From a virus, in the IMG/VR virus record IMGVR_UViG_3300025286_000120, positions 1 through 26,188 of that record: a stretch of 26,188 nt of DNA, one strand, 5' to 3'. Below the pieces are notes generated by a model. That model searched no databases, was not told the origin of the DNA, and worked only from the letters and a program-made list of their open reading frames with translations. The number at the start of each line of letters is the position of its first letter. Position 1 is the first letter of the stretch. Of this stretch, positions 20,194 through 26,188 are shown in pieces. The position numbers and the translations under genes are program-made.

Positions 20194-21642
20194 TCATGAT
20201 CTGCCTGTCCATTGCAGTGGCTTGCCGTATGGGTTCTTGGCTGGCTTGTTGCGCTTGGCCTTCCCAACACGACCGGTCCATGGCATTGAGTTCATCATGG
20301 TGCGTACAAAATTCAATAGCTGGCTGGTGGCGTCAACTTGGTCGTTGTTCTTACTCAAGGGGAAGCTGGTGACCTCCTTGATCCAGTCACTGACCCATGG
20401 TGCGGTATGTGGCAGTGGTGCGTGTACGTGCCCGGTCTTGAATTCTCCTGCAACACTGATTGCGCGTGCCAGCTTTGAATCCGTTGGGTTGATCGGTTGG
20501 AACCCACCCAGTGCTTCCAGTGCCGAGATGATTGCGGATCCGTTGGCCTTGTCCTCAACCAGCTTCAAGAACGCTTGCGGGTAGTCATTGTTGACACGCA
20601 CGACCTGTTCACACAGTTCAACAAAGGACCACTTGCCACGCACCTGGTGAACCAAGTACCGATCCGGTCCCTTGATTGCCCACACCTGACCCACACCATA
20701 GCTGGTCTTCTCGCCCTTCTTGAATGCGCAGTCCCATGACTGCAACCACAGGTCAACGTCGTGCGGCACGTTGGTCCAGAACTGCAGCCATGGGAACTTC
20801 CATACCGATCCTTCAAGTGGCACCGGCATCCCTTGGTACATGCCATTGAATGTGTGCGGTTTGTTCTCCTTGATTAACAACAGGTCCGTCGCAGTAAACC
20901 GGTCAGGGCACAGGGCTTCACCTGGCTTGCGACCAAAGGGATCGTTGTCACCTTCCTCGCACAGCGCCTTGACATTGATATGGTCCCAATTCTCAAACTT
21001 CCAGTCGTCCAACAGATGTGCGGTAAAGTCATTGTCGTGCCACCGCGTCATGATTACGATAATGGAACAGTTGGGCTCACGCCTGGTCCAGAATGTCTTC
21101 TCATAGAACGTCTGCTGTGACTGCAGCTTGGCTGGGCTCATGCTGTCTTCATAGTTCTTGTGCGGGTCATCAAATATGAGAAGGTCGCCACCGCGACCAG
21201 TGAACGACCCACCAACACCGCCTGTCTTCATGCCGCCGCCAACCATGGTCTCCCAGTCCTTGGCAGCGCGCTTGTTGGATCGTATGGGCTGTATGAGTTC
21301 AGATTCCTCATCCGTGAATAGGTTCAGGACCTTGCCACCCCAGTCGCTTGCAAAGCCTGCCTCGTAGCTGGCGAGCAGCACGCGCTTGGTTGGGAACCAA
21401 TGCACAAACCAAGCAGGCAACCACTTGGAAAGCAGGAACGACTTGCCGTGCCTGGGTGGCATGTTGATTATGATCCGCGCATTGCCTTGCAGGATCTTGC
21501 GCTGCACCATGCATGAGATCTGCCGTAGGTAGGTCCACGCCACCCAGTCGCCACCGCTTACCCACTGGGCAAACGTGTGCAGGTTGAGACGCCAGTACAT
21601 AGGATCCCAATCGCATTCAATATGGTACGGGCTCACTTGCAT
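20194..21642 (-). CDS. terL: Terminase large subunit
   Basis: A 482-aa ATPase/nuclease that pumps DNA into the head. The ATPase part has Walker A MPPRHGKS (61-68), an adenine/arginine stretch, Walker B LLIFDDP (154-160) and the coupling motif IIVIMTRWH (194-202). The RNase H-like nuclease part has acidic residues at SWD (D304), VEDKANG (E363/D364) and NDQVDA (D437), the expected triad. Length is typical. ATG at 21642 overlaps the coiled-coil gene by 10 bp. Unlike many phages, the small terminase gene is not adjacent: five small genes lie between. Confidence 0.95.
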   Translation of the reverse strand: MQVSPYHIECDWDPMYWRLNLHTFAQWVSGGDWVAWTYLRQISCMVQRKILQGNARIIINMPPRHGKSFLLSKWLPAWFVHWFPTKRVLLASYEAGFASDWGGKVLNLFTDEESELIQPIRSNKRAAKDWETMVGGGMKTGGVGGSFTGRGGDLLIFDDPHKNYEDSMSPAKLQSQQTFYEKTFWTRREPNCSIIVIMTRWHDNDFTAHLLDDWKFENWDHINVKALCEEGDNDPFGRKPGEALCPDRFTATDLLLIKENKPHTFNGMYQGMPVPLEGSVWKFPWLQFWTNVPHDVDLWLQSWDCAFKKGEKTSYGVGQVWAIKGPDRYLVHQVRGKWSFVELCEQVVRVNNDYPQAFLKLVEDKANGSAIISALEALGGFQPINPTDSKLARAISVAGEFKTGHVHAPLPHTAPWVSDWIKEVTSFPLSKNNDQVDATSQLLNFVRTMMNSMPWTGRVGKAKRNKPAKNPYGKPLQWTGRS

Positions 21643-22175: not shown

Positions 22176-22394
22176 TTACAGTGGCGGCGCTTGCAGCCCA
22201 AGACCAATGGCCACCAGTGAGAGGAAGTCATGCAAGGACATCTCGTAGCGATCACAGAACCTTTCAACGGTCCATGGTTGCCCAGTGTTTAGGTTGCACA
22301 GCTTACTTGCGCTGACCACCTTGCCGTCCTGTGTTTCAACATCACAGCACCACTTGGTGTTGCGCTGCTTGAATGCTGCTTTGTACCTTTCCAT
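22176..22394 (-). CDS. Small protein with the shared TVERFCDRYEMSLHDF module
   Basis: A 72-aa protein: MERYKAAFKQRNTKWCCDVE, then ASKLCNLNTGQPWTVERFCD and the stretch RYEMSLHDFLSLVA before a short tail. ATG 22394 lies 2 bp after the upstream stop with a GA-rich ribosome site before it; the ORF extension to 22424 is rejected. The 22-residue module starting at WTVERF is identical to that in the gene at 22704-22919 because of a 67-bp exact DNA repeat. The module looks like a small helical, perhaps helix-turn-helix, unit. No family recognised. Confidence 0.55.
   Translation of the reverse strand: MERYKAAFKQRNTKWCCDVETQDGKVVSASKLCNLNTGQPWTVERFCDRYEMSLHDFLSLVAIGLGLQAPPL
22210..22276. repeat. 67-bp direct repeat, copy 1
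   Basis: Identical over 67 bp to 22714-22780; flanks differ at once on both sides. It codes in the same relative frame for WTVERFCDRYEMSLHDFLSL and VA in both carrier genes. Perfect identity at silent sites means recent duplication or gene conversion. Confidence 0.95.
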
Positions 22395-22396
22395 TT

Positions 22397-22735
22397 TCAA
22401 TCTTCTCCCCTCACTGGTACCCACCGTCCGTTAATGAGTACCTCTGTTGTTGGTTCACTTGGCTGCTGTTGTTGGCGCTGCTTGGCTGCTTGCCTGGCGT
22501 AATGTGCACGCAGCCCTTCTCTCAATCTGTCTGCTGCTGCCTGTGCCCTATCAAGATCAGGCATGAAAGGGTTGGGGCCAGTAAAGTCAAACGTGCGCTC
22601 ACCTTTTGGCTTGTGGTACGTGTAATGGACACGGCTGGGTCCAGTGCCAAAGTCATACTGCACTTTGTGCTTCTTGTTGAACTGATCATGCAGCCGTGTC
22701 TTCTCACGCTCCAGCCACCAGTGAGAGGAAGTCAT
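22397..22735 (-). CDS. Small unknown protein, Gln-rich C-terminal part
   Basis: A 112-aa protein from ATG 22735, a start lying inside repeat copy 2 and overlapping the upstream gene by 32 bp. The recognisable body begins WWLEREKTRLHDQFNKKHKV and goes on QYDFGTGPSRVHYTYHKPKG, FDFTGPNPFMPDLDRAQAAA, a helical Ala/Arg/Gln-rich stretch (ARQAAKQRQQQQ) and TTEVLINGRWVPVRGED. The start is uncertain: upstream codons to 22828 translate the duplicated DNA in a different frame, so they are probably not natural coding sequence. No family recognised. Confidence 0.5.
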   Translation of the reverse strand: MTSSHWWLEREKTRLHDQFNKKHKVQYDFGTGPSRVHYTYHKPKGERTFDFTGPNPFMPDLDRAQAAADRLREGLRAHYARQAAKQRQQQQPSEPTTEVLINGRWVPVRGED

Positions 22736-22919
22736 GCAAGGACATCTCGTAGCGATCACAGAACCTTTCAACGGTCCATGTGTTGGCAGCGGCGCGTCTT
22801 GCGGCGGCGCGTATGGCTTCAACATCAAAGGCGCTGGCCTTTTGTTTTGACCTGCTGCGCTGCTGACGTCTCAATCTGTCCCAACGTGCTGTGTGCTTGT
22901 CATAGCTGTTGCGTGCCAT
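22704..22919 (-). CDS. Small protein with the shared TVERFCDRYEMSLHDF module
   Basis: A 71-aa protein. ATG 22919 is chosen because AAGGA lies ~9 nt upstream; longer in-frame extension to 23024 is low-complexity and His/Thr-rich. The N-terminal ~45 residues are very basic (TARWDRLRRQQRSRSKQKAS), then an Ala/Arg helix (VEAIRAAARRAAANT) and the repeated module WTVERFCDRYEMSLHDFLSL close to the C-terminus. Basic charge plus a helical module suggests DNA or RNA binding. It is a partial paralogue of the gene at 22176-22394, sharing only the 67-bp repeat. Confidence 0.55.
   Translation of the reverse strand: MARNSYDKHTARWDRLRRQQRSRSKQKASAFDVEAIRAAARRAAANTWTVERFCDRYEMSLHDFLSLVAGA
22714..22780. repeat. 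67-bp direct repeat, copy 2
   Basis: Exact copy of 22210-22276, 504 bp away in the same orientation. The region between the copies carries most of the gene at 22397-22735, so recombination between copies would delete that gene and fuse the two flanking ones in frame. Confidence 0.95.
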
Positions 22920-23107
22920 GGTTGGTCCTTGGGTGTGGGCTGTGTGCCTGCTGTGGCTACAGCGCAGTGCTGGGTGGCTTGGTGCATGTGTGTCTGCGTG
23001 GCCATATGAGCTTGGGTCTGCCATGTTTGCAAGGTGAATGAATAACCTTGGCTATGCGGAAGAACGTCCATTGAAATACTATGTTGAACCAGTGCAGCCT
23101 TGTCATG
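22920..23107 (-). other. 188-bp gap without a convincing gene
   Basis: The longest gap in the window. Short open frames here (for example 22871-23071) are rich in His, Thr and Gln and overlap real genes; none has a ribosome site, so I do not call them. The ribosome site AAGGA of the 22919 gene lies at its left end. No hairpin or clear promoter was seen. Confidence 0.5.
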
Positions 23108-23335
23108 TTACATCCACCAGAACTTGATGTTGAGTTTGTTGGCCAGTGCCCTATCAAGGTCGGTGCGCTGCACCACATCAGTGCGCAGGATCTTGTTGAT
23201 GGTTGTTGTTGAATACCAGAACAGAGTGGGCTTACCATCCTCACTCAACAGCTTGTATTCAACATCAACAAGCACGCCCTTAACACGCACGCTTGCCTTC
23301 TTATACGGTTGTGAGTGACCCGTTGCCGTTACCAT
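23108..23335 (-). CDS. Small unknown protein overlapping terS
   Basis: A 75-aa protein. ATG 23335 lies inside the Asn-Gly repeat region of the small terminase gene, giving a 35-bp overlap in another frame; GGGAACGGAA stands just before it as a possible ribosome site. The body KKASVRVKGVLVDVEYKLLS, GKPTLFWYSTTTINKILRTD, VQRTDLDRALANKLNIKFWW has alternating beta strands and a helix. No family recognised. An ORF extension to 23479 reads through the terminase gene and is rejected. Confidence 0.55.
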   Translation of the reverse strand: MVTATGHSQPYKKASVRVKGVLVDVEYKLLSEDGKPTLFWYSTTTINKILRTDVVQRTDLDRALANKLNIKFWWM

Positions 23336-23900
23336 TTCCGTTCCCGTTGGTGTGACCGTTGGTGCCGTTGCCGTTGTGCTTGCCGCTTTCAACAAGGCGC
23401 TTTTGTATCTCAGCATGGGCCAACACCTCAGCGTCGTGCAGCACACCAGGCTCACCCAGTATGGCACGCAGCTTTTCACGTGGGTCCATTACCACGCCAG
23501 TGCCACCGCCACCACCAATGCCACCTATGTTGACATTCACGTTGCGTGTTGGGCTGTACTCATCAGGCCAGCGTTGGGCGAGCATGCGCAGTGCCATTCT
23601 TGGGTCAGTGCGTGCGCTGTTGACTGACACAGCCAGCAGGTTGCGCTTGATCCTGCCCTCAGCTTCCATGATTGCTGTCATAAAGTTACAGCATTTGTCT
23701 TGGTATGGTGTGCGGTCTTCAGCCTCAACCTCCCATGCTTGCTTAGCTGTGCGTTGCCATAGTGAGAACGTTCCCCTAGCAATACCAACTACTTGGCAGG
23801 CAGTCTTGATTGTGCATGCACCTAACAGACACTTGACAAACGTGTCAACAAGTTCAGGTGTTAGTGCTGTCTTGCGACCTAATCTGTTGTTTGGGTTCAT
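23301..23900 (-). CDS. terS: Terminase small subunit
   Basis: A 199-aa DNA-recognition protein. ATG 23900 has GGAGGT 5 nt upstream; the ATG at 23912 would overlap this ribosome site, so I prefer 23900. Residues ~10-55 form a helix-turn-helix (LTPELVDTFVKCLLGACTIK, TACQVVGIARGTFSLWQRTA). The middle has the small-terminase pattern ARTDPRMALRMLAQRWPDEY followed by NVNVNIGGIGGGGG. The C-terminus is a repeat of Asn-Gly (HNGNGTNGHTNGNGNGNGNG, ~175-194). It binds the packaging site and loads TerL. Five genes separate it from terL. Confidence 0.78.
   Translation of the reverse strand: MNPNNRLGRKTALTPELVDTFVKCLLGACTIKTACQVVGIARGTFSLWQRTAKQAWEVEAEDRTPYQDKCCNFMTAIMEAEGRIKRNLLAVSVNSARTDPRMALRMLAQRWPDEYSPTRNVNVNIGGIGGGGGTGVVMDPREKLRAILGEPGVLHDAEVLAHAEIQKRLVESGKHNGNGTNGHTNGNGNGNGNGSLTTV
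23319..23375. repeat. Low-complexity repeat encoding (Asn-Gly)n
   Basis: A degenerate 6-bp repeat (plus strand GTTGCC/GTTACC/GTTCCC-like units) codes for the Asn-Gly tail of the small terminase. The start of the next gene lies inside it in another frame. Such tracts can change length by slippage in steps of two residues. Confidence 0.75.
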
Positions 23901-23950
23901 AAGGACCTCCATTCAATACAGTGGCAGCATAAGTGCACCAATGAATAGTT

Positions 23951-26188
23951 TCAATCCTGCTTGCATGCCTTTGTTGCTTTCAATGGGTCACCTTTGCAAA
24001 ACACCAGCACGTTCTGATGTACCTTGCCAAGCTTGCGGCTGTTGTTGAATGCCTTGGCAGTGCGTACCGGTACAGTGCCTAGTGGTGTCCTTAGTATGGC
24101 TTGGTTGTACAGCTTGGCACCAGCGTCATTGAATGCCGCAATGGTGTCAGATATAAAGTCGCGGTAGTAGCCCTTGGGTCCGCGTATGTCTCCCACTACA
24201 AAGCAGGCGAACCTGTGTTGCCTCAACCTCCATACTGCCTGCCTGATTATGTTCCGGTATGCTTCAATGAACTTATCGTACGGCATGTTGGAAAGGTCCC
24301 GTGGGTCGTCGCTGTACTGCTCAAGGTCAGCGTACGGGGGACATGAGAAGACCAGATCGTACTCACCTTCCAACATCGGTACCACGACTGAGCTGTCGCC
24401 GCATACCCACTCCGGTGTCCTCCTGTGTGCTGTTGGCTGCTGTGTTGGTTGTACCTCGGACCTGGGTCCAGGGACGACGCCATTGCTCTCCCATTCCGCT
24501 TCCGCATCTAGCGCGGCTTCTACCTCGGGAGGCATTGGCACCGTTATGTCCTGTCCTGCCAGGACGCTCTCAACAATGTTGTTGGCTGTGCTCTCACCAA
24601 ACAACTCCACGAGGCTATCACGCACCCCTACAATCACAGGTTGACCCATGTTGTAGTTGGTGCCACACGGGACGCCTTGCGGTACGCGGTTGTGTAGCAC
24701 CACGGTGTCATTGTCATTGATGACCAGTGGGTACAGGTGGCAAGTGACCGGCTTGTCCTTTGGAGTGAACGTGCAACCTTGGGAGCCGAGCTTTATGCAT
24801 GCGTCGTGTCCTTTGGAACGGCTGGCTTGTGCTGGCCAGAACGCCGGTGTGATGCAACACCTACCACCACACCCTCCCTTCTTGATTATGTTGGGCACAG
24901 TGCATGCGACCCTCTTGGACGCCCATGCTGCACTGAACTTGAGTGAACGCTCGCCCTTGCCTACTGCAACCGCATCAGCTCCTGACTCCGTCTTGCGTAC
25001 ACCCACGACCCACAACAGGTCACCGGGTTGCAACGTGGGTATGCACTTAGCTTCATAGTGGCTGTCCAATCTAAGACCATGCAGGTACACAGTGTCAGCC
25101 GGTGCGTGGTAGTCAGCCTCGCTCTCAATGAGGGTGCACATACTCTTCCATGTGGCTGGTGCGTACTCCTCCAGACGCTTGGTTGGGTTGGCACCAACGC
25201 ACACACCGACCACAGGTACAGTGATCCCGTGGTCAAGCATACCGTGCAGCACACCAGCCAAGGACATACCGCTGCCAACAGGCATCACGATCCGCTTTAC
25301 CTTGAGTCCTTTCAGGTTGGCGACCTGGGTGCGTGTGTAGCGCACAGCATCGGCGCACTCCATTCCAAAGGGGACCTCCTTATAACCACGAGCCTCTGCG
25401 TCCTTGCGTGCCTCAGCTATGATCTGTGAGTTGTATCCGGGACGGTGTTGGATGATCTGTGCGCCTGCTTCCATGGCACTGACCAGCTCCGGGGACAGCT
25501 CCCCTGCTGGCACATGGACACGGCAAGGCAGGTCCAGACGTTTGGCTATGTGTGCCACGATGTTGACCTGTGGACTGGATCTGGACCCTGCTGTAACCAA
25601 GCCCGTCTTGATGTCCTTGCACATGGTCCAGCATGTGCGCACCTTGCCACCGCGCACACCACCAACAGCGTACAGGTCGTCCCGCTTAACCAAGTACTTC
25701 CCCAACGTGGCAACAGGGGTCAGGTCTGGTTGGTGGTCCTTTGCCTCCTTGGTCAGCGTGATACTGATGTCCTTGATTGTAGACCACTGCTTGCGGTTGG
25801 CTTTGACCTGTTCCTCTCTAAGGTCCACCCCTGTGTACTCACGTCCCAACAAGCCAGCCACGATACCGCGCACACTACCGCCAGCGAACGGGTCTAAGAT
25901 CCGGTGCCCTGGTGCGGTGAACCAACGGTACAGGATCTCGCACAACACAGGATCAAAGATGCTCGTCCCAGACATGCCTGACCTATCCACTCCGTCATAT
26001 GAAGGAACCTCACCAAAGGCGAGCCCCTTCTGTACTGCGTTCAGTTGTTTCTGATTGCCGATAAGTAATCCATCACCTCGGCCCAACTCACTCTTGATAC
26101 CAATGGCTTTCCAGGATCTCTTTCTCTCGTTCCAATACCCTTGCCTCGCATCCAATACAGAGAAAGGTGGTACTATAAAACGATCAAC
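23951..26188 (-). CDS. DNA methyltransferase split by a PLP-enzyme domain and a Cys-cluster domain (5' partial)
   Basis: At least 745 codons; the frame is open to the right edge, so the true start lies outside (TTG 26155 is internal, and PPFSVLDARQGYWNERK crosses it). Numbering from 26155: residues ~60-125 are a methyltransferase SAM half (TSIFDPVLCEILYRWF, DPFAGGS at 88-94, YTGVDL at 107-112). Residues ~140-410 are a PLP fold-II domain: RDDLYAVGGVRGGKVR with K171 as probable Schiff-base lysine and VGSGMSLAG (293-301) as phosphate loop. Residues ~425-490 hold a YkgJ-like cluster (C429, C433, C434, C453, C461, C472). Residues ~583-722 are the other methyltransferase half with CGDSS and SCPPY (604-608). 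It probably modifies phage DNA; the product is unknown. Confidence 0.85.
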   Translation of the reverse strand, partial: VDRFIVPPFSVLDARQGYWNERKRSWKAIGIKSELGRGDGLLIGNQKQLNAVQKGLAFGEVPSYDGVDRSGMSGTSIFDPVLCEILYRWFTAPGHRILDPFAGGSVRGIVAGLLGREYTGVDLREEQVKANRKQWSTIKDISITLTKEAKDHQPDLTPVATLGKYLVKRDDLYAVGGVRGGKVRTCWTMCKDIKTGLVTAGSRSSPQVNIVAHIAKRLDLPCRVHVPAGELSPELVSAMEAGAQIIQHRPGYNSQIIAEARKDAEARGYKEVPFGMECADAVRYTRTQVANLKGLKVKRIVMPVGSGMSLAGVLHGMLDHGITVPVVGVCVGANPTKRLEEYAPATWKSMCTLIESEADYHAPADTVYLHGLRLDSHYEAKCIPTLQPGDLLWVVGVRKTESGADAVAVGKGERSLKFSAAWASKRVACTVPNIIKKGGCGGRCCITPAFWPAQASRSKGHDACIKLGSQGCTFTPKDKPVTCHLYPLVINDNDTVVLHNRVPQGVPCGTNYNMGQPVIVGVRDSLVELFGESTANNIVESVLAGQDITVPMPPEVEAALDAEAEWESNGVVPGPRSEVQPTQQPTAHRRTPEWVCGDSSVVVPMLEGEYDLVFSCPPYADLEQYSDDPRDLSNMPYDKFIEAYRNIIRQAVWRLRQHRFACFVVGDIRGPKGYYRDFISDTIAAFNDAGAKLYNQAILRTPLGTVPVRTAKAFNNSRKLGKVHQNVLVFCKGDPLKATKACKQD

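Follow-up and report, generated by a model that had tools for sequence, protein, structure and literature searches.

A PLP-dependent domain inserted in a phage ParB-methylase: a candidate self-contained enzyme for DNA-base hypermodification

The analyzed window, 26,188 bp in length, is the entire IMG/VR record IMGVR_UViG_3300025286_000120. An uninterrupted open reading frame (ORF) of 745 codons lies on its minus strand and runs from 26188 to a stop codon at 23951-23953. The ORF is open on the 5' side, where the contig ends at 26188. Because the window is the whole record and the ORF meets its end, the true N-terminus is missing, and the TTG listed as start codon is not where translation really begins. 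The parts of the encoded protein and the terminase genes were located as follows.

23951..26188, minus strand: whole ORF, consisting of a ParB tail, methylase N-terminal half, PLP domain, YkgJ/DUF3109-like domain, and methylase C-terminal half
26066..26188, minus strand: end of the ParB-methylase linker, residues 1-41, matching positions 166-205 of the ParB-like phrog_15396 (E value, 4.8e-7)
25745..26188, minus strand: methylase N-terminal half, residues 1-148, with motif I DPFAGGS (99-105) and the motif II region YTGVDL
24974..25738, minus strand: fold-type II PLP domain, residues 151-405, with K182, S205-P-Q, VGSGMSLAG (304-312), and Tyr378-Glu379
24554..24952, minus strand: YkgJ/DUF3109-like domain, residues 413-545, with eight conserved cysteines and CX3CC
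23954..24421, minus strand: methylase C-terminal half, residues 590-745, with motif III GDS (597-599) and motif IV SCPPYADLE (615-623)
23301..23912, minus strand: terminase small subunit, the next downstream gene
20194..21642, minus strand: terminase large subunit

The gene for the split methylase sits just before the genes for the small and large terminase subunits and the portal, and the methylase-PLP genes of phages Vincenzo and ZS04 have a similar near-terminase position. Two neighboring small ORFs on the minus strand, at 22176-22424 and 22704-23024, both carry TVERFCDRYEMSLHDFLSLVA near their C-termini. This duplicated module falls between the methylase gene and that of the large terminase subunit. 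The preliminary description had reported one frame holding both methylase motif I and the catalytic SCPPY motif, and the two were indeed found in a single frame, with SCPPY at residues 615-619. The long gap between them is real, but its length was given as about 490 residues and is about 510 when counted. The ParB domain that normally precedes the methylase is cut off in this contig and had been missed.

Next, the two methylase stretches were compared with known families. Both matched N6_N4_Mtase in Pfam (PF01555; E value, 8.8e-9; 36.1 bits against a gathering threshold of 26.7) and phrog_498, annotated as a DNA methyltransferase, in PHROGs (E value, 5.6e-78). Uninterrupted ParB-plus-methylase proteins of the same family are Listeria phage B054 gp77, Enterococcus phage phiFL3A gp36, HCTV-2 gp11, and Vincenzo gp1. 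In uninterrupted members, [ST]CPPY follows motif I after about 70 residues (about 68 from motif I to motif IV in P0006), which agrees with the earlier statement that the two halves are adjacent in ordinary members. A ParB domain lies upstream of the methylase in most complete relatives; in two, ParB_N scored 23.9 and 20.8 against a cutoff of 26.3, with strong matches to ParB phrogs. B054 gp77 and phiFL3A gp36 have the same ParB and CPPY family (phrog_498) in the same order, without a PLP or cysteine-cluster insert, and thus show the parental form. A survey of phage ParB-methylases (PMC12704722) makes no mention of PLP or pyridoxal in its main text. When the methylase alone was used as the query in a viral scan, eight loci were recovered, mostly near-copies of B054.

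Motif IV of amino-methylases normally opens with D, N, or S. The pattern [DNS]PP[YFW] was not matched in this family, and CPPY was found instead in 75 of the 76 methylase sequences, including those of the uninterrupted B054, phiFL3A, and HCTV-2 (e.g., P0006, P0007, and P0008). The cysteine-first motif IV belongs to the family with or without the PLP insert, which makes the family a variant subfamily rather than an ordinary member of N6_N4_Mtase. The sequence does not reveal the target base, as the solved methylase closest to it in sequence is an m2G enzyme for tRNA (E value, 8e-4).

The uninterrupted homologues align along both methylase halves. The insertion falls between the helix downstream of motif II (...LREEQVKANRKQW) and the strand that bears motif III (GDS). 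The PLP domain occupies the methylase loop that joins helix B to strand 3. Going by the order usual for class I methylase folds, this loop would lie across the sheet from the methylase active site, and the PLP domain is therefore expected to act as a tethered second active site outside the methylase pocket. In an AlphaFold2 model built with 34 relatives, pLDDT was mostly >80 in both methylase halves and 86 to 98 in the PLP domain; prediction was poor for the cysteine segment and the linkers. A Foldseek search of BFVD aligned the uninterrupted phage methylase A0A6J5Q9J0 (318 amino acids) with the model over 752 columns, with a TM score of 0.77 by target length and a root mean square deviation of 8.7 Å. 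The two halves are accordingly predicted to close into one methylase fold. The VIA-align comparison of the whole model covered residues 148 to 406, with no solved methylase among its matches.

The assignment of a fold-type II PLP domain with a lysine context and a glycine loop held up. GGVRGGK was located at residues 176 to 182 upstream of VGSGMSLAG, and PALP (PF00291) matched residues 164 to 354 above its gathering threshold (E value, 1.5e-11; 44.7 bits against 35). In PHROGs, phrog_3650 matched over the PLP domain of the studied protein (P0001) with an E value of 4.2e-23. The predicted domain aligned with 1j0a over 252 residues (Z score, 25.0; 2.9 Å; VIA-align), and D-cysteine desulfhydrase was tied with an ACC deaminase homologue (Z scores, 24.7 versus 25.0 over about 250 residues; Foldseek and VIA-align). 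The lysine aligned with that of real family members: K182, S205, and Y378, the tyrosine of LDPxYEAK (LDSHYEAK here), were invariant in 21 diverse copies. The domain therefore shares its fold (Z scores of about 24 to 25) and its PLP lysine, serine, and tyrosine with D-cysteine desulfhydrase and ACC deaminase, and a Tyr-Glu pair with ACC deaminase. Unlike these enzymes, it has SP in place of SN and scores far below the family cutoffs (20.2 bits against 289.4 for TIGR01275, ACC deaminase/D-cysteine desulfhydrase), and its family is essentially restricted to phages, in or beside a DNA enzyme. Compared with a cellular ACC deaminase, the phage copies show, besides SP for SN, the motif GYNSxI and the ending WxVG. 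The SPQ/GYNSxI/WxVG signature is common to Vi01_182 of phage ViI, is partly present in Montesquieu MONT_41 and Cygsa01_62, and is absent from the cellular ACC deaminase compared. The Erythrobacter/Microcystis type is more diverged, with the lysine and tyrosine kept.

These residues bear on a regulatory or structural reading, in which the PLP domain has lost its chemistry and serves to sense a ligand or to recognize the DNA target. Inserts in DNA methylases frequently have a part in target recognition, and the Erythrobacter-type copies are strongly diverged, as such a role would allow. However, the active-site lysine, serine, and tyrosine are conserved across the diverse copies, even the diverged type retains the lysine and tyrosine, and the PLP enzyme also occurs as a separate gene. 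We consider this reading very improbable.

The cysteine segment had been described as six cysteines in YkgJ-like spacing. The segment was recovered, but with eight cysteines (429, 440, 444, 445, 464, 472, 483, and 508), which include CX3CC and are invariant in seven relatives. DUF3109 matched below its gathering threshold (21.6 bits against 33.5; E value, 2.2e-4; Pfam), and CxxCxxCC/YkgJ matched weakly in one relative (15.2 bits against 23). When the domain was searched alone, it turned up in 12 contigs; the methylase accompanied it in 11 of them and the PLP domain in 10, and where a partner was missing, the YkgJ-like domain lay at a contig edge. It stands after the PLP insert, between the methylase and the PLP domain, or as a gene of its own between them (L065). 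Most relatives do without it. The domain proposed as a metal cluster is therefore real but an optional part of the system. A functional lead comes by analogy from FliB, which has CX4CX3CC, eight conserved cysteines, and one [4Fe-4S] cluster and uses SAM (PMC8598068). The likeness to FliB/YkgJ lies in the CX3CC core and the number of conserved cysteines (PMC8598068), whereas the spacing before CX3CC differs and the putative metal site here is fused into a DNA enzyme.

Another module, a C-terminal domain of about 300 amino acids after the PLP domain, was found at L104:8736-9650 and L072:4863-5744; the former belongs to an 1,185-amino-acid ParB-methylase-PLP-ligase-like protein of a Loktanella metagenome-assembled genome. 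The domain gave no Pfam or PDB sequence match, and a viral scan with the L104 sequence returned no further relatives. Its low-confidence model (pLDDT, 52.5) gave YbdK, glutamine synthetase, and GCL as the best Foldseek rows (E values, 0.05 to 1.1), and the domain is possibly a glutamine-synthetase-like, amide-bond-forming ligase. Such a ligase was discarded as a general part of the system, since among 48 viral records it was present only in L072, with L104 as an additional case.

The distribution of the PLP family was examined with a 21-sequence profile. Relatives were found in 133 viral contigs (80 kept) versus 2 of 84,980 bacterial and archaeal genomes. The same methylase family was present at 79 of the 86 PLP loci, and PLP domain and methylase shared one ORF at 57 of the 86 (near-copies included in both counts). 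A separate methylase gene was detected in the fetched flank at 18 further loci and elsewhere in the record at 3 more. ZS04 also has both in one ORF; its PLP domain is too divergent for the BLAST search used, and the insert was seen by alignment. At seven PLP locus rows (five distinct), no CPPY methylase was found in the record or genome searched. Two of these, L061 (a 257-kb record) and L105 (Bradyrhizobium), may have an alternative partner.

Insertion is the commonest arrangement. The preliminary description knew of no characterized enzyme with this architecture, which is nevertheless not a one-off: about 40 viral proteins, mostly clearly distinct, have the inserted arrangement. An assembly artefact or mis-joined frames could be suspected as the source of the split methylase, given that the ORF runs off the contig end; these proteins and the complete Pam4 genome show the same arrangement, which rules this out and leaves it a negligible probability. 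The PLP domain is also found fused after the methylase (C-terminal in L014, L042, and L104), fused before it (N-terminal in L088), or encoded by a separate gene (Vincenzo, L078, L079, L094, and others). The inserted state changed at least six times on well-supported branches of the PLP tree, which was built by a quick search and is silent on cellular origin, because its two cellular outgroup rows are an antisense ORF and TrpB. As the same two enzymes have been repeatedly joined and split, these data are strong evidence that the PLP enzyme and the methylase act in one pathway. A search of open-licence full texts, with subscription papers outside its scope, found no description of the methylase-PLP architecture.

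Several individual loci were also inspected. In Erythrobacter phage ZS04, a feature similar to PAPS reductase (L003:1-939) lies close upstream of the PLP-inserted methylase. Two annotated proteins are probably mis-annotated PLP partners of a ParB-methylase, namely XAI96327 of Microcystis phage Mae-JY30 (L109:6108-6818, "DNA modification methylase") and Vincenzo gp2 (L004:1406-2275, "nucleoside/carboxylate deaminase").

The linkage has to be weighed against plain 6mA, 4mC, or m2G methylation, with the PLP enzyme independently metabolizing a free amino acid and joined to the methylase for co-expression. Uninterrupted methylases with no PLP gene nearby exist in B054, phiFL3A, and HCTV-2; some phages thus keep the methylase without the PLP enzyme, which counts against joint hypermodification. 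The PLP domain also resembles deaminases and desulfhydrases of free amino acids, and because it is ACC-deaminase-like, a role on a free metabolite is possible. On the other hand, the linkage survives repeated fusion and fission across many unrelated phages, and this PLP family seldom occurs away from the CPPY methylase. Plain methylation with separate PLP metabolism is therefore regarded as rather unlikely.

Relatives of the PLP domain were then considered in phages that hypermodify thymidine. The studied domain and the stand-alone PLP protein of Vincenzo both match phrog_3650, of which Vi01_182 of the Salmonella phage ViI is a full-length member. The kinship is distant (the Vincenzo protein is about 29 to 34% identical to the ViI and Montesquieu enzymes) and rests on long branches. 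MONT_41 of the Glutamicibacter phage Montesquieu (L141:4977-5879), annotated as an ACC deaminase, overlaps a gene for alpha-glutamyl/putrescinyl thymine pyrophosphorylase clade 2 and lies near genes for thymidylate kinase and pyrimidine hydroxymethylase; it is likely a hypermodification enzyme. The Cygsa01 homologue lies near thymidylate synthase-like and dNMP kinase genes. Lee et al. (NAR, 2022) reportedly describe PLP-dependent decarboxylases that act on amino acids already bound to DNA. DNA of ViI-like phages carries 5-(2-aminoethoxy)methyl-dU (PMC11721090, PMC6449724). Given these relatives of the PLP domain in phages that hypermodify thymidine, hypermodification, as suggested in the preliminary description, fits better than plain methylation.

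Thymidine hypermodification in phages M6 and ViI uses a 5hmU kinase, an amino acid:DNA transferase, and a PLP enzyme, and the phrog_3650 PLP family is shared with the system described here. Both would link amino-acid-type chemistry to DNA, with a likely antinuclease purpose; the present system differs in its SAM-dependent, amino-methylase-type domain, often within one polypeptide. The 5hmU kinase domain (HMUDK_hel, PF18723) was absent from 27 of 28 window-type viral records, a set that contains many fragments and does not include the studied record, and from all four cultured carriers searched (Pam4, ZS04, Mae-JY30, and Vincenzo). The search controls, ViI and Montesquieu, were positive. The thymidine 5hmU route was therefore rejected for the carriers in which the kinase is absent. 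The only window-type record tested that has the kinase domain is L078 (G036:C1:25964-26788), where both routes may coexist.

A second comparison concerns CmoX, CmoA, and CmoY, which make 5-carboxymethylcytosine, CmoA supplying carboxy-SAM to CmoX (PMC12783734). In those systems, too, a phage SAM-type DNA enzyme installs a handle that an ATP-dependent ligase extends, and genes with ParB domains are often nearby (PMC12783734). CmoX belongs to the C5-methylases and has an SPPC motif, whereas the present family has CPPY and is of the amino-methylase type; the CmoX systems as described have no PLP domain, and the carriers here have no CmoA. Specifically, the Cx-SAM synthase CmoA (TIGR00740) was found in none of 32 carrier records, and a CmoA-type donor was rejected for them. 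With the 5hmU kinase missing from all but one of the viral records searched and CmoA from all, the same kind of PLP enzyme appears to work here with a methylase in place of the 5hmU/kinase/transferase route.

The CmoA result also bears on donor supply, in which the PLP domain would convert SAM or a free amino acid into an unusual methyl-donor analogue that the methylase domain then transfers to DNA, as in the CmoA-CmoX pair. The tethering of the PLP domain to a SAM enzyme is in keeping with such a role, and a dedicated cofactor-making partner has a phage precedent (PMC12783734). Nevertheless, apart from the lack of CmoA in the carrier records, no conversion of SAM by ACC-deaminase-type folds is known, and a phage relative of the PLP domain has as its neighbor a member of a class of enzymes that couple amino acids to DNA. 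We regard donor supply as improbable.

Altogether, the protein is probably, though by no means certainly, a phage enzyme for self-contained hypermodification of DNA bases, in which the PLP domain would tailor an amino acid on or for the base. In this proposal, the ParB-fold domain and the SAM-dependent, CPPY methylase-type domain would bind DNA, and the methylase domain would put a SAM-derived group onto a base. The PLP domain would then process the amino-acid moiety on the modified base or prepare the moiety that is used. In some phages, the cysteine-cluster (FliB/YkgJ-like) domain or the glutamine-synthetase-like ligase may add a further step, and the phage DNA would in the end be hidden from nucleases. 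The data show the domain identities, the conserved catalytic residues, a nearly constant genomic linkage, and the relation of the PLP domain to enzymes of phages with hypermodified thymidine; DNA as substrate of the PLP step, the sequence of steps, the chemistry, the target base, and the protection are inferred from them. As a tentative chemistry, which we hold with low confidence, the CPPY domain could move the 3-amino-3-carboxypropyl group of SAM, in place of its methyl group, to a base amine and so create a DNA-linked amino acid in a single step, the PLP domain could decarboxylate it or carry out an elimination, and the cysteine cluster (through Fe-S/SAM chemistry like that of FliB) or the ligase could elaborate the product. 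Such a transfer followed by a PLP step would be chemically economical. Feeding of the PLP enzyme by a serine kinase of the ParB/SerK type was set aside, since ParB-methylases without a PLP enzyme are common.

The genes described here would call for corrected annotation where they are labeled as ACC or nucleoside deaminase, DNA modification methylase, or ParB. Cultured carriers for testing are the Mycobacterium phages Vincenzo and AlanGrant (host M. smegmatis mc2 155), the Pseudanabaena phage Pam4, the Erythrobacter phages R6L and ZS04, and the Microcystis phage Mae-JY30. Known rich modifications of phage DNA mostly begin at a hydroxymethyl (or carboxymethyl) handle and involve several separate enzymes. 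The aminocarboxypropyl route, if true, would mean hypermodification independent of 5hmU in a single polypeptide. If the proposed function is correct, a single chain that pairs a SAM-dependent base modifier with a PLP enzyme, to which cysteine-cluster and ligase modules may be added, would constitute an unrecognized path to modified DNA that is widespread and confined to phages.
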